A DNA stretch of 20,471 nt from a virus. The DNA lies in the IMG/VR virus record IMGVR_UViG_3300037961_003130, positions 1 to 20,471 of that record; one strand, given 5' to 3'. The notes beneath the pieces were generated by a model. It was not told where the DNA came from. It saw only the letters and a program-made list of their open reading frames with translations, and ran no database searches. Positions 1 through 9,187 of this stretch are shown piece by piece. How positions within the stretch are numbered: position 1 is the first letter of the stretch; the number at the start of each line of letters is the position of its first letter. Position numbers and translations under genes: made by a program.

Positions 1-3000
1 TAGTTGATCCACTCTTCACCGCTATTGCCTAGCCAAGCAGCGTCAAAAGTGTTCGTCGTAAAGTTCTGTGATTGGCTGGTTATTGCTGCTGTGCTGTTAA
101 GAAGCAAATAACCCTCAACGCTGCCAGTGTCAACAGCAACGTACCAATCGCTTGTGCCGTCCATTCGCTTACGGAAGACCATATGCGGTTTAGCATTCAA
201 GCCGTGACCAATCGTTCCAGAGCTAGAAATTGTTGCTTTGACAATCGAGAACCCAGCAGATTGGTTAGCACGAACATTCGCACTGATGCTGCCGTCAGTA
301 TTGCTAGCTGTTGACGTTCCAGCGTCCCATGCCCAGGCAATATACGCCTCATTAAGGGCATTTGTAGGGTTAGAATTGCCTTTGACAGTAAAGCCGTTTG
401 AATCAAAAGACTCAAAAATATCTTCATTGTTGAAAATAGTTGTTTGCGATGAAGATAAACGTTGTGTAATTGCGCGAACTGTGTCGTAAATAGAATGTCC
501 AGATACAGCAGTACGAACTTTGGCCCACAAAAAATCAGGGCTGAAAGAGAAGCCAGTTATCGCTTGGGTGCTGCTGGCGGTTGTGCCATTGCCCGTATAG
601 AGCTTGGCGTCAAAGTAATCCGAACCATCGGCAATCGTTGGGTCCGGCAGATTCTGCGTGCAGAGTGACTTGTAGCCTGTTGGTGGCGTGTACGCAAATG
701 GGCGTTGGCCGAAGTTAACGTTGATGGCTACGTTCTGGTTCAACGCGCTAACGGGTTGAAGATTACCCGTGTCAGGTGCCGTCAACGTTCCAACAGATGA
801 TCCGTTTCGCGTAATGATCAAGCCACGCGTTGATGGATCAAAAGCAAACCCAATAATGTCGCCAGCACTTGCACTGAAATCTGCTGCTGTTTGGGTTCCA
901 TTGACATATGTGCCACCACCACTGCCAGAGCCAGCCAGATAAATACCCGCTCCACCAGATTGATCAGGACGGCCACCTTGCGCATTAACGCCATGGATAC
1001 CGCCAATTGCACCAGTCCTTGGTGTTTCTACAGTGACTTCCCAATAGCATTTTGCAGTTGGAACGATAGTTGAAGAGGCAATTTTTGTTGCAGAGTTAGA
1101 ATTAGTTGCGTCTAGGTTTCCGTTAGACAGTGTGACACCAGAGCTAGACAGTGGGTTCCACGTCGCATAGTTGCCGCCGTTATTGCCGGACGATGCTTCG
1201 TAGTTCGTCGGCGTGTCGATCAGGCTGTCAATAACTGATCCATCAGGCGTTCCAGCAAACGCCATGTAGATGTAAGTTCCACCTGAAGCATTTATGTTTC
1301 CGTCTGTTCCATTGATTGTAAATCCAGTGCTTGTAAAGCTGAGATTCATCGTGGAATGACTTTGTTCAGCATCAGCGTTGTTAGCCTCAATCCAGTAATT
1401 ATCTCCACGAGCCGTGTCATACATAGCCCAATGGCCTGCAGAGTCAGTCCTTTTAATCATGACAAAAGCAGCAGCAAAGCCCGTTGCAATTGAATGACCA
1501 GAAGATCCAGTTCCGGTGTAGCTGCTAATTTTGCTAAATCCAGAAACTTCTGACCAGCAGTAGGCGACATAGTTGTTACCAGAGTTGTTCAGGTTTGTAA
1601 GGTTTGCACTCCCTTGAACAACTTGGTAAGTGCTGCTTCCAACGTTTGAGTAGTATCCGCCGCTAGGGGTAAAGGCTCCATTACTAACATCAAGCCCAAG
1701 AACTTTTGTCGCGGCCAGTGTCTCGTTATATGTAATCCAGTTATATGCGGAACTGCGGTTTTTGGTAATAATCAGCTTTGGAACCGCACTTAAGCCATGT
1801 CCAATAGTTGAATTATTAACGGAATTTCCTGCATAAGTAACAACTGAAAAACCATAAGTGTTGTTTGCTTTAACAACTGACTGAATGCTGCCGTCGAAGT
1901 TTGACGCTCCAGCAGTGCTGTTCGTATTGATCTGACCGCCCATTCCTGTGTGGTTTGCACAGCTGTAATACAGCGTTGATACGCCAGTTCCAAGAACAAG
2001 TGTTGTCTTGGCCCCTGCGCTGCCAGGCGTTCCAGTGTGCGTTACGCCTGTGGTGTAGTCAGTCCCGTTAGCAGACGTTCCAAACCGAATCGGGTGACCT
2101 GCATTGCTGCTATCTGATTGGTCAAAGACGTAGGTGCTGCCTTCCTGCAGGTCGAGCGTTACAGCGCTGGTGCCAAAGTCATCAAAGCGGTACTTGTTGC
2201 CGCTGTCACTAACAACTTTGACGGTGTAAGTCTTGTTGCTGTTTGCCCCAGCGTTCCATGCCCAAGCGACAAACGTTCCGCCTGAAGCGTTTGTTTGATT
2301 ATATGTGCCGTTAACAGTAAAACCGTTTGAATCAAAAGACGCAATGGCAGGATCATTGGTCTTTTCAGCACCGGTATTTGAACTCTCTAGGGCTTTTGTG
2401 ACACCACGGATAGAATCAAATAAAGCATGTGCGTTGTTGCCGTTTCTGCGTTTAATCCATAAAAAATCCGGCTGGAACTTGAGACCTGGGCCGGTGCCGT
2501 CTAGCAACACCGTTCCATCAACCTTGATGGCCCTCCAGTTGACAGCATTTGTGCCAGCAGTTGTCACATGTTTGACAATAATTCCGTTCGTAGTGCTGAT
2601 GGTTTGGCTGCCAATACTTACATAACTACCGCTACCCCCAGCCGTTGTGAGGTTAGTAAAGGTTGACCCTCCATCGAGAGAATAAGAGAATGTGCTGTTA
2701 TCTGTGTCGCCATTCCTTAAATACAGCTCAATAGAGCCTGTAATTGCAATTGGGGGTACAAATTTAATTCCGGAGCCACTTGTACTGCTGCTGTAAAAAC
2801 TTGTAGATGTATTTCCATCAAACAAGTTAGTTGCGGGTTCGCTACCAAGAGAATTGACATACGCGCTAACGCCGTCGCTATAAACAGGCCCACCAATCTT
2901 TTGCGTTCCACCATTGCCACTGTAAGTAACAGCATCGAAACCTTCCGTACCATCAGCACCAGCAGTAGCAACAAGGTTATTTACGTCGAAGTTATTGCCA

Positions 3001-5057
3001 GGTCGATCCGCAAATGCTGCGTAGATGTACGTTCCACCTGAAGCATTCATGCCAGAAGCAGTGCCATTAACGGTAAAACCATTGGCAGTCATTGTAATGC
3101 TGTAGTTGCTGTCTTCAGCATCACTTAAATCAGCCCAAACAGTTTTGCCAGTCCCTCTTGCCGAGTCAAAAATAAACCAATTTCCGGTTGAATCTGTCCT
3201 CTTGAGCAGTACATAACGAGGCTTGAATCCGGTCGTGACAGCTTTGCCACTTGATCCTGAACCGCTATAGCTGCCAAACTTGCTGAATCCGCTGACTTCG
3301 CTCCAGCAATAAGCGACTTGATCTTGACCGTTGCGGTTACTTTCTGTATCGCCACCTACGCTAAACACGCTTGAAGTTGGCGCTGTGCTGTTCCAGTTTC
3401 CTGTATTTGTTGATGCAATATTTTCGTTCAAATATAATTTTTTGCCTGCGCCAATTTCTGGCGAATAGATGGCCCAACTCATTGAACTTTCTGTACGACA
3501 CTTAGCAATAATTAGGCTTGGTGCAGCACTCAAACCATGGCCGACTGTTTCGGCGTTGCCAGTTCCCGTATAAGTAACAATTGAGAACCCGTAATCAGTT
3601 GAAACTGATGTTTGTGAACTTATAGATCCATCAGAGTTAGCTGATGCCGCTCCACCTGCTTTCCAACACCAAGCAACGTAAGAGCCTGAACTGATGTTTG
3701 TATTCGCACTTGTTTGAACGGTAAATCCGTCTGAGGTAAAAGCAGACAGATGGTCAGTTTGAGTTGTTTCTGGGTGGCTAACGTTAGAAATAAGGCGCTT
3801 ATTTGCACCGCGAACAGTGTCAAACAAAACATGGTATCTTGTAGCGTTGCGCTGCTTAATCCACACAAGATCAGGCTGGAATCCTAAGCCGCTAATTGTC
3901 TGCGTGCTGCCGCTACCCGTGTAGGTGACGACATCCATGCCGCCATCAGGATTCAATGTGACCGTTTCCTTTTGGTCGTAACCCAGTGTAGCGTTGCTGC
4001 TGTTATCGTTGAAGGGTAGGTAGAACGAATTGAAGCCTGTACCTTGAACAAGAATCGTAGTCCCGTCAATTCTGATTGCTGAAAAACCTACAGAGTTTCC
4101 TTGCGCTCCTTGTTTAAGGACAAAACTTGTAAACGTGCCACTGCCAGACAAAAGTGTCTTGTAGCCGTCGCCTGCAGCAAAACTTTGATCACTGCCGCCG
4201 TTGACTGAGTATCTAGTGACTGCAACATTGCCAGTTGGATATAAAAAAACCTCAACACTGCTGCTGTACGCAATACCGCCAGTTGGAGTAAAGGTGAGCG
4301 TTTGGTTCTGCGAAGTGTTAGTTAATTGAGCAGGCGTTGATGTGTCTCCATCAAAAGCATTTGATAACGAAGTGCCAGAATATAACGTTCCATTCATTAC
4401 TAAGTCGGCAAGATAGTCTGTGCCAGAGCCGTACGATCCGGAAAATTCTTTCGGCTGCCAGACATTGTTGCTGTCGTATTCACCGAAGTCAGATGCAGCA
4501 AGTGCTTGACCGTCGATGAAGTGAATTTCAGCCTGGTAACAATTGGTGTAAGTATTCGACTGCCTGCCAATGTAGTGAATATCCGTTGTATTTATATCAG
4601 TGGTCGCGTTTTCAGAAATAGTCGCTTCTGTTGAATATGACTGCTCTGTACCATTTACATAAATCCTGCATCGGTTGGCGACAGTCGAGTTAGTTGTGTC
4701 CCATGTAACGACAATATGATACCAAGCACTTGGATCTCTAAAAACAGCATCCGTTACTCGATATTTTGTAGGTCCGTCTACAAATTGCAGTCGATTACTT
4801 GTGTCAAATGCAACTTCAGTCGTTTGAGACGTGTCTGCTGACATCAAAATTGGTGTATATGTTCCAAAAAAACCTGCTCGCTTTACCCAACCGCTAAGAG
4901 TCCAAGTCGTACCACTGCCTGCAGACGACGGCGTTCTATTTAGATATGCACTATCAGCACTGTTAAACCGCAAGCTGCGATCTACCTGATAAGCAGCAGG
5001 TGCTGCCGCTGCCGTTGTAGCCAGCAGCAGAGGTGTTGCACTTCCAGGAATACTCAT
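1..5057 (-). CDS. Giant modular tail adhesin/receptor-binding protein (partial, runs off left edge)
   Basis: I read this frame by eye from the ATG at 5057 to the window edge and found no stop: 1685 full codons, with the C-terminus outside the window. The start overlaps the stop of the 808-residue fibre gene as ATGA. Approximate domain order by residue: Ala-rich start 1-20; LamG/concanavalin-like 22-190 (LSGWVKRAG, WYHIVVTWD); discoidin-like 215-370 (NAFDGDTST); WIK-R module 399-468; GFS-V-Y module 492-685 (WSEVSGFSKFG); second discoidin-like 724-849 (NLFDGNTST); WIK-R module 867-936; cupredoxin-like 942-1045; second GFS-V-Y module 1070-1270; SPRY-like 1333-1466; third WIK-R module 1511-1576; a further GFS-V module cut by the edge. 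I associate the WIK-R modules with DUF7483 from memory. The many beta-rich binding domains and the position after the hub and fibre genes suggest a surface-exposed adhesin that binds the host envelope. The role is inferred; the domain calls are by motif only. Confidence 0.85.
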   Translation of the reverse strand, partial: MSIPGSATPLLLATTAAAAPAAYQVDRSLRFNSADSAYLNRTPSSAGSGTTWTLSGWVKRAGFFGTYTPILMSADTSQTTEVAFDTSNRLQFVDGPTKYRVTDAVFRDPSAWYHIVVTWDTTNSTVANRCRIYVNGTEQSYSTEATISENATTDINTTDIHYIGRQSNTYTNCYQAEIHFIDGQALAASDFGEYDSNNVWQPKEFSGSYGSGTDYLADLVMNGTLYSGTSLSNAFDGDTSTPAQLTNTSQNQTLTFTPTGGIAYSSSVEVFLYPTGNVAVTRYSVNGGSDQSFAAGDGYKTLLSGSGTFTSFVLKQGAQGNSVGFSAIRIDGTTILVQGTGFNSFYLPFNDNSSNATLGYDQKETVTLNPDGGMDVVTYTGSGSTQTISGLGFQPDLVWIKQRNATRYHVLFDTVRGANKRLISNVSHPETTQTDHLSAFTSDGFTVQTSANTNISSGSYVAWCWKAGGAASANSDGSISSQTSVSTDYGFSIVTYTGTGNAETVGHGLSAAPSLIIAKCRTESSMSWAIYSPEIGAGKKLYLNENIASTNTGNWNSTAPTSSVFSVGGDTESNRNGQDQVAYCWSEVSGFSKFGSYSGSGSSGKAVTTGFKPRYVLLKRTDSTGNWFIFDSARGTGKTVWADLSDAEDSNYSITMTANGFTVNGTASGMNASGGTYIYAAFADRPGNNFDVNNLVATAGADGTEGFDAVTYSGNGGTQKIGGPVYSDGVSAYVNSLGSEPATNLFDGNTSTSFYSSSTSGSGIKFVPPIAITGSIELYLRNGDTDNSTFSYSLDGGSTFTNLTTAGGSGSYVSIGSQTISTTNGIIVKHVTTAGTNAVNWRAIKVDGTVLLDGTGPGLKFQPDFLWIKRRNGNNAHALFDSIRGVTKALESSNTGAEKTNDPAIASFDSNGFTVNGTYNQTNASGGTFVAWAWNAGANSNKTYTVKVVSDSGNKYRFDDFGTSAVTLDLQEGSTYVFDQSDSSNAGHPIRFGTSANGTDYTTGVTHTGTPGSAGAKTTLVLGTGVSTLYYSCANHTGMGGQINTNSTAGASNFDGSIQSVVKANNTYGFSVVTYAGNSVNNSTIGHGLSAVPKLIITKNRSSAYNWITYNETLAATKVLGLDVSNGAFTPSGGYYSNVGSSTYQVVQGSANLTNLNNSGNNYVAYCWSEVSGFSKISSYTGTGSSGHSIATGFAAAFVMIKRTDSAGHWAMYDTARGDNYWIEANNADAEQSHSTMNLSFTSTGFTINGTDGNINASGGTYIYMAFAGTPDGSVIDSLIDTPTNYEASSGNNGGNYATWNPLSSSGVTLSNGNLDATNSNSATKIASSTIVPTAKCYWEVTVETPRTGAIGGIHGVNAQGGRPDQSGGAGIYLAGSGSGGGTYVNGTQTAADFSASAGDIIGFAFDPSTRGLIITRNGSSVGTLTAPDTGNLQPVSALNQNVAINVNFGQRPFAYTPPTGYKSLCTQNLPDPTIADGSDYFDAKLYTGNGTTASSTQAITGFSFSPDFLWAKVRTAVSGHSIYDTVRAITQRLSSSQTTIFNNEDIFESFDSNGFTVKGNSNPTNALNEAYIAWAWDAGTSTASNTDGSISANVRANQSAGFSIVKATISSSGTIGHGLNAKPHMVFRKRMDGTSDWYVAVDTGSVEGYLLLNSTAAITSQSQNFTTNTFDAAWLGNSGEEWIN
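660..1060 (-). other. SPRY/B30.2-like domain inside the giant adhesin
   Basis: This segment encodes residues about 1333-1466 of the adhesin. It starts CYWEVTVE, has a Gly-rich middle, then GDIIGFAFDPSTRGLIITRNG, and closes with NFGQRPFAYTPPTGYKSL. The WEV start, the D-x-IG-x-A-x-D strand and the FGQRPF-Y-PP-GYK ending fit SPRY-type beta-sandwich domains, which bind protein or glycan partners. It lies between the second GFS-V-Y module and the third WIK-R module. Confidence 0.65.
1266..3047. repeat. Diverged direct repeats in adhesin GFS-V-Y modules (1266-1292 and 3021-3047)
   Basis: The 27-base segments at 1266-1292 and 3021-3047 differ at one position. Both encode NASGGTYIY near the end of the two GFS-V-Y modules. 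A related, more diverged copy (NASGGTFVAW) lies near 2250-2290 at the end of WIK-R module 2. Confidence 0.75.
1923..2234 (-). other. Cupredoxin-like domain inside the giant adhesin
   Basis: This segment encodes adhesin residues about 942-1045. It begins with beta-strand-like sequence (YTVKVVSDSG, VTLDLQEGSTYVFDQ), then has AGHPIRF with H988, and ends LYYSCANHTGMGG with C1033, H1036 and M1039. The order His, then Cys-x2-His-x2-Met, is the ligand pattern of type 1 copper proteins, and the amicyanin loop has the same C-x2-H-x2-M spacing. Whether it binds copper is not shown by the sequence. Similar CxNHxGMGG endings occur, from memory, in other marine phage structural proteins. Confidence 0.7.
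4490..5000 (-). other. LamG/concanavalin A-like domain at the adhesin N-terminus
   Basis: Residues about 20-190 of the adhesin read as a LamG-like jelly roll: RSLRFNSADSAYLNRTPS, then TLSGWVKRAGF, WYHIVVTWDTT, RIYVNG and IHFIDGQALAASDFGEYD. The WYHIVVTWD strand followed by an -IYVNG- strand is typical of concanavalin-like domains that often bind glycans. Carbohydrate binding is inferred. Confidence 0.7.
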
Positions 5058-8367: not shown

Positions 8368-8798
8368 GAGATTGTCACCGTAGACAGGGCTCCAGTGCCT
8401 TGGAACGAAATCTCAGCTCTAACAATTTCACCTGTTGCCGCTCCAATAGATGCACTGGTGATATACGCGGTCAGTTTGATGTCGTTGTTATCCGTTCCAT
8501 CAACCCAACGGAATGTCAACTCAACAGTGTCACTACTGCTTACACCGCTCGTTCCTGTTTTATAGAGCTTGTTGAGAACATTTGTGGTGTTGATATTGCC
8601 ACTGCCATCCTTGTAATACAACAAGGTTGCACTGCCGCTATAGCCGACCACACCAGGTGAATAGCTGCGGATATGTTCGTTCAGCGTTGTCGTCTCAAGC
8701 GTTTCAAGGTTTGATGACACCTGAAAATTGACGACCTTGGCAAGGGTCGTTCCACCGAGCTGCAGTACGCCGTCTCTGCCGGTGTAGACCTTTGCCAT
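8364..8798 (-). CDS. Phage tail tube-like protein, 144 residues
   Basis: The protein starts MAKVYTGRDGVLQLGGTTLA and continues with VVNFQVSSNLETLETTTLNE, then HIRSYSPGVVGYSGSAT. A short N-terminal strand, an -ET-T-L- loop, then a G-G-A-L strand and the ending EISFQGTGAL fit the compact fold of tail tube proteins. It is much shorter than the 311-residue tube protein at 18871-19806 and sits after the hub gene, so it may form a cap, tip ring or tube-like adaptor rather than the main tube. It shares the TTTL-x3-x-RS pattern with the next gene, which suggests an old duplication. The start overlaps the upstream stop by one base (TGATG). Structural role is well supported, exact position in the virion is not. 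Confidence 0.7.
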   Translation of the reverse strand: MAKVYTGRDGVLQLGGTTLAKVVNFQVSSNLETLETTTLNEHIRSYSPGVVGYSGSATLLYYKDGSGNINTTNVLNKLYKTGTSGVSSSDTVELTFRWVDGTDNNDIKLTAYITSASIGAATGEIVRAEISFQGTGALSTVTIS

Positions 8799-9187
8799 CA
8801 GATCACAGCAATCAAATTCACTGTAACAGTGCTGATACCGGGACGCACCTGAGTCATCTGAGGAGCATTCTCATATCGGTAGACGTTGCCATGGGCTCCC
8901 GCGCCGATCGCATCTTCATCACCTTTCCAGCCGCCTTTGCCGCTGCTTGGATTTACAGACAACGTTCCAAACGTTCCTTGAATCGAGTCGTAGTGATCCA
9001 AAATCAACTCAGCGTCAGCATCGGTGATATTGGCAAAGGTCAGCGACAGCTTCATGTTGGTGCGGGTGCTGCCATACAAAATTCGGTGCTCAGCACCGTT
9101 TTGCGCCTTAAACGTCTTGACCGGATAATCCCCAGCTTCAAACGAGCGAGAGGTCGGAATTAGATCAGGGAACGGTGCGAAAGCCAT
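8798..9187 (-). CDS. Minor tail protein, gpM/distal-tail-like, 129 residues
   Basis: The protein starts MAFAPFPDLIPTSRSFEAGD and has YPVKTFKAQNGAEHRILYGS, then LSLTFANITDADAELILDHY and FGTLSV. A loop with an expected-shape statement followed by a -LSLTF-nItd-a--i--hy strand-helix unit is the pattern of lambda gpM-like and related minor tail proteins that connect the tube to the tip. The gene begins inside the stop of the hub gene (TAATG). In lambda, gpM comes before gpJ; here the gpM-like gene follows the hub, so the order differs. Family assignment rests on pattern and context only. Confidence 0.6.
   Translation of the reverse strand: MAFAPFPDLIPTSRSFEAGDYPVKTFKAQNGAEHRILYGSTRTNMKLSLTFANITDADAELILDHYDSIQGTFGTLSVNPSSGKGGWKGDEDAIGAGAHGNVYRYENAPQMTQVRPGISTVTVNLIAVI

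Follow-up and report, generated by a model that had tools for sequence, protein, structure and literature searches.

The question raised by this locus is whether a phage tail adhesin contains a cupredoxin with a working copper site and, if so, what such a module would do in a virion protein. The locus lies in a window of 20,471 nucleotides, which is the whole stretch of viral DNA that was analysed (positions 1 to 20,471 of IMG/VR record IMGVR_UViG_3300037961_003130). An earlier note, made from the sequence alone, had proposed a cupredoxin-like domain in this adhesin, with H988, C1033, H1036, and M1039 in the order of type 1 copper ligands.

The tail proteins and their insertion sites

The adhesin is a modular protein in which Pfam identifies DUF7483 (E = 1e-220, four stretches) and SPRY (E = 3e-7), and PHROGs assigns it to tail fiber and virion structural families. 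Relatives of the adhesin occur among the tail or structural proteins of pelagiphages, cyanophages, and roseophages, and some carry lectin, LamG, or SPRY annotations. Other genes in the window encode tape-measure, gpJ-like, tail-tube-like, and minor tail proteins, and neither tRNA genes nor Rfam families were found in the window. One of the three DUF7483-like units of the adhesin is filled, with the module located between WAWNAG and ASNFDGSI, while the two sibling units run uninterrupted through the equivalent site (WCWKAG-GAASANSDGSI and WAWDAG-TSTASNTDGSI). The earlier note had placed the module at adhesin residues 942–1045 (K942–T1045), corresponding to 1923–2234 on the minus strand. This mapping is exact, as are the positions of the four ligands, but the domain is slightly larger than was thought (about residues 940–1048; Table 1). 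A second insert of about 140 amino acids (residues 719–862, 2472–2903 on the minus strand) occupies another loop of the module-bearing unit, and relatives are just 12–35% identical there.

Table 1. Positions of the module, its putative ligands, and the two tail proteins in the window
Feature	Position	Strand	Basis or remark
Modular tail adhesin, DUF7483 + SPRY	3..5057	-	Pfam, PHROGs; 1685 aa seen, 3' end of gene beyond window
DUF7483-like unit, N-terminal part, residues 703-936	2250..2951	-	Alignment to two sibling units
Cupredoxin-fold module, residues 940-1048	1914..2240	-	AlphaFold2 model, PDB matches, 581-residue context model
H988, putative first His ligand, GHP motif directly before strand	2094..2096	-	Sequence, model, hhalign
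C1033, putative thiolate ligand closing a strand	1959..1961	-	Sequence, model, profile alignment, codon variation
H1036, putative second His ligand	1950..1952	-	Sequence, profile alignment, codon variation
M1039, putative axial Met ligand	1941..1943	-	Sequence, model, profile alignment, Met in 81/81 relatives
DUF7483-like unit, continuation after insert, residues 1049-1268	1254..1913	-	Sibling units uninterrupted
Minor/distal tail protein, 129 aa, site empty here	8798..9187	-	phrog_15525, alignment
Empty insertion site near GAGAHGNV, minor tail protein	8879..8911	-	Alignment

The minor tail protein, whose gene adjoins the gpJ-like gene, provides a second insertion site. Orthologues in sister phages are filled with a relative of the module in 13 cases and empty in 55, and filled and empty proteins align across the core. 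At one locus (L278) the adhesin and minor-tail sites are both filled. The minor-tail copies form a cluster (support 95/82) that also takes in four other rows, and the adhesin copies of the window's group fall outside it. Both host proteins would lie at the tail tip, judging from gene order and PHROGs names. The earlier note described a single adhesin; its module stands, but the loop insertion with empty sibling sites and the widespread family had been missed.

Evolved distal tail proteins (evoDit) show the same pattern: their core can be aligned with that of orthologues lacking the insert, and their carbohydrate-binding inserts promote adsorption (PMC10688798). In both cases some phages have an accessory module in a loop of a tail protein, which is at the tail tip in evoDit and putatively so here, and close relatives are without it. 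The two differ in the nature of the insert, which is a carbohydrate-binding module in evoDit and, here, a cupredoxin whose metal ligands are conserved as a set.

Fold and ligand layout

The AlphaFold2 model of the module, for which 40 aligned sequences served as input, is an all-beta beta-sandwich (mean pLDDT 94.9, pTM 0.88). A Foldseek search with this model gave 11 PDB matches at E ≤ 0.001, all of them copper proteins of the cupredoxin superfamily (HdNiR, rusticyanin, CueO, and a laccase), with the best match to 2dv6 (E = 9e-5). By VIA-align, the N-terminal type 1 copper domain of HdNiR (2dv6_A) superposes over 100/109 residues (Z = 10.1, rmsd 2.5, 20% identity) and rusticyanin (2cal) over 100 residues (Z = 8.9, 18% identity), followed by laccases among the best solved matches; middling Z scores are common in VIA searches, and here the top matches come from one superfamily and span the whole domain. 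An independent 581-residue context model, made up of the DUF7483-like unit and its inserts, again returned cupredoxins as VIA matches, every one of them inside the insert. The predicted structure thus has the features of the superfamily, namely a Greek-key beta-sandwich of about eight strands that can be superposed on solved cupredoxins. No carbohydrate-binding or Ig domain ranked in the structure searches with the module, the lists being full of cupredoxins, although other families are possible. The cupredoxin fold that the earlier note had proposed is well supported by these models, and the ligand set within it is intact.

Searches with the sequence of the single domain yielded marginal PDB matches at best (pseudoazurin, E = 0.35) and nothing useful in Pfam. 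Neither PF00127 nor PF13473 was matched by the window domain or any of 24 relatives, with the PF00127 cut-off not reached, and PF00127 has no match anywhere in the window record. The family is without a Pfam model; fold and ligand set make the module a cupredoxin, while the cut-off keeps it out of PF00127.

In the model, a strand follows directly after H988, another ends with C1033, and the loop that precedes the last strand contains H1036 and M1039. This is the arrangement of type 1 copper sites, in which the ligands follow the order His, Cys, His, Met and the last three are found at and past the end of the penultimate strand. A profile alignment with cupredoxins (score 35.5) pairs all four residues with ligands. 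Following removal of the phage member, the score is 34.2 and H988, C1033, and H1036 remain paired; the controls for this score are 200 column shuffles, which reach at most 17.9, and the reversed profile, which reaches 14.8. A remote H988, which the earlier note had named as a refuting outcome, was not seen: this alignment pairs H988 with the residue that is the first His ligand in known cupredoxins. The whole-length match to solved cupredoxins would place the four side chains within bonding distance in the predicted fold.

Comparison with characterized cupredoxins places the module close to several of them. Amicyanin, plastocyanin, and pseudoazurin (PF00127) have the same ligand order (H...C-x2-H-x2-M) and can be aligned with the module by profile. 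The spacing, described earlier as amicyanin-type, is indeed that of amicyanin, which reads CTPHPFM in the PDB (full-length sequence match). In contrast to PF00127 proteins, the phage module has HP for HN, as the first His is followed by Pro where plastocyanin and amicyanin have Asn, and it is inserted in tail proteins rather than being a free carrier. Rusticyanin has high structural similarity to the module and differs in being a free, high-potential electron carrier; its ligand loop is longer (C-x4-H-x4-M). The best structural match, the N-terminal domain of the nitrite reductase HdNiR from Hyphomicrobium denitrificans (2dv6), is likewise a cupredoxin tethered to another protein (PMC7201279). 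The copper ligands of HdNiR include His77 and, in the numbering of the other strain, His122 (PMC7201279), and both fall within the 2dv6 range matched by the module. That domain differs from the module in that it is tethered to an enzyme, is discussed in electron transfer, and has no virion role.

Conservation and distribution of the ligand set

The invariance of the ligands in alignments A1 and A2 was not used alone as proof because the pattern of the source scan contained C-x2-H-x2-M. Fair samples of conservation are provided by the phage records, the genome_contigs matches, the loci retrieved with the N-terminal 76 residues, and the sister phages reached through an unrelated gene. Both HP and C-x2-H-x2-M are present in 80/80 loci when the query is limited to the N-terminal 76 residues, a stretch that excludes the C-H-M segment. 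Sampling through an unrelated tail gene recovered the motif in 13/13 full-length minor-tail copies and in all of several adhesin copies from sister phages. An intact copy was also found in 13/13 named phage loci inspected, with matches down to <40% identity. Among 81 relatives the ligand residues are constant, while their codons vary synonymously (e.g., CAC 50/CAT 31; CAC or CAT at H1036 and TGT or TGC at C1033) and the x positions of C-x2-H-x2-M are variable. Ligands of homologous modules, whose comparison the earlier note had proposed, therefore do not vary freely (80/80, 81/81, and 13/13).

The dN/dS ratio of the window domain against its ten nearest relatives is 0.03–0.07, showing strong purifying selection on the module; dN values for loci from L023 onward were discarded, as those comparisons were unaligned. 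Between the window and loci L001–L010 the module is 91–98% identical and the flanking DUF7483 merely 35–52%, as if the module were exchanged as a cassette or were under much stronger constraint than its flanks, a contrast that is partly due to ascertainment since the loci were ranked by the module itself.

Matches to the module occur in hundreds of IMG/VR contigs and in 33 phage records, which are from marine phages wherever a host or source is stated. The hosts include Synechococcus, Prochlorococcus, Pelagibacter, and Methylophilales, and the genome_contigs matches are chiefly short or phage-like contigs within marine genomes. In one marine podovirus the module lies close to the C-terminal end of a T7-type tail fibre, and it is also found in cyanomyovirus baseplate and tail-fibre families and in a virion structural protein of S-TIM5. 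Carriers in culture include Cyanophage S-TIM5, Pelagibacter phage HTVC028P, and Synechococcus phage S-B68.

Some proteins carry several copies. A protein from a SAR116 MAG (L185, PADU01000020.1) contains five cupredoxin-like repeats, four ligand-less and one complete. Another, from a 189-kb contig of Prochlorococcus AG-418-C09 (L186), has three copies: one that has lost C/H/M, one complete, and one in which Gln, as in stellacyanin, replaces the Met ligand. This phage-like contig encodes a plastocyanin-type protein (G003:C3, L272) in addition to the tail cupredoxins (L177 and L186).

The site is complete in 25 of 34 non-redundant domains and is partly or wholly lost in the other nine, indicating that the fold family can persist without it. 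All nine degenerate domains, one of which has Gln for Met, occur in proteins with an additional intact copy. The degenerate second copy in L091 retains its Cys, so loss of C/H/M is not strictly all-or-none. These observations bear on the suggestion that the module is simply a beta-sandwich for adhesion or spacing, functions without metal, and keeps H-C-H-M for packing. Such a domain would fit with the family sequence signature still seen in site-less copies, and metal-independent binding inserts (e.g., carbohydrate-binding modules) are common in phage tails. However, this suggestion is unlikely, as a free Cys, two His, and a Met are retained in 80/80 loci and 81/81 relatives with variable neighbouring loop residues, no structural reason was seen for keeping H-C-H-M without metal, and every site-less copy found shares its protein with an intact copy. 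The metal-lost module that the earlier note had offered as an option is similarly unlikely for the window copy.

Possible roles of the putative copper site

The explanation that we favour, and regard as reasonably probable, is that of an accessory cupredoxin module in a loop of the tail adhesin, with a working mononuclear copper site, that aids adhesion of the tail tip. Metal binding is probable because the four-ligand set is retained and is invariant where its neighbours vary, and the metal would be copper because the fold is that of a cupredoxin. An adhesion function is suggested by context, since the architecture is like that of evoDit, whose inserts promote adsorption.

Under this explanation, H988, C1033, H1036, and M1039 together would hold a single copper ion in a type 1-like site. 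Several points count against this explanation: the cytoplasm in which phage proteins fold is poor in copper, PDB matches by sequence are marginal, the first His is followed by Pro where plastocyanin and amicyanin have Asn, and nine of the 34 non-redundant domains are degenerate. The adhesin may fold in this copper-poor cytoplasm as an apo-protein, and loading would for this reason probably follow release, with copper being taken up from seawater or host lysate. Copper would then lock a rigid, exposed domain that would aid the tail tip in adhering to the host, much as carbohydrate-binding inserts do in evoDit. Stabilization of such a display domain is our first choice among the roles of copper; a lure or redox contact, comparable to the Ferrojan idea for iron, is a possible alternative. 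The earlier note, whose interpretation is supported in part, had named copper sensing, tip stabilization, and mimicry of a host electron-transfer protein as candidate roles.

The conserved copper ligands suggest that virus particles may carry copper where they contact the host cell. Bound copper would give abundant ocean phages a redox metal at their interface with the host, and would tie viral attachment to trace-metal chemistry. A more far-reaching reading, which we hold to be doubtful, is that virions are copper-loaded, such that a large family of marine phages would have blue or green copper centres on tail tips and fibres that are filled after release. In the same reading, copper occupancy would serve as a lure or a switch when virions attach to the host. 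If this reading were true, the tail proteins would recognize hosts in a copper-dependent manner, and phage particles would make up a marine copper pool.

A separate proposal is that copper serves contact chemistry, with the holo-module docking on a surface or periplasmic host protein, or swapping electrons or copper with it, which would be the counterpart for copper of the iron 'Ferrojan horse'. Candidate partners would be a copper receptor or a cupredoxin partner, although we know of no partner protein. The complete and constrained ligand set, the location of the module in tail fibres, baseplate-associated, and tail-tip proteins, the comparable idea for iron (PMC5797145), and the 189-kb phage-like contig that combines a plastocyanin-type gene with tail cupredoxins are all consistent with this proposal. 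Nevertheless, it is quite unlikely, as the very diverse hosts suit a general module better than a single partner protein. It is very unlikely that another metal, such as zinc or ferrous iron, occupies the site as a structural ion. Both are also bound by Cys and His, and iron in the spike tip of phage P2 is quoted in PMC5797145, but H/C-x2-H-x2-M within a cupredoxin fold is a copper arrangement, and copper is what the closest solved domains of this fold bind. A chance pattern in a low-complexity tail protein was rejected because the ligands are conserved in hundreds of contigs within a confident fold, and C-x2-H-x2-M, which begins at the sole C-x2-H in the entire adhesin (C1033), is expected 0.0009 times per adhesin by composition and appeared in 0/2000 shuffles.

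No description of tail cupredoxins with a conserved copper-ligand set was found in the open-access literature. As tail binding inserts and cupredoxins were each known already, the novelty of the accessory module would lie in the use of a cupredoxin with conserved copper ligands as a tail module. Cyanophage plastocyanin (PetE), an auxiliary metabolic gene product (PMC3037559), is likewise a cupredoxin borne by marine phages; it differs in being a free-standing photosynthesis protein, whereas the tail module falls outside the Pfam model of PetE and has a different ligand-loop length. In Prochlorococcus phage P-HM2 (L089, PHM2_106), a second, divergent plastocyanin-like cupredoxin is found beside the module in one tail protein. 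This second copy matches PDB plastocyanin (E = 0.0024) and PF00127 (E = 8.5e-4, narrowly below the curated cut-off). Finally, the BFVD entries A0A481YVH3, A0A481Z6J5, and A0A481Z7Q7, which match the model by fold, are small 'beta-sandwich proteins' of marseillevirus- and pithovirus-like giant viruses.
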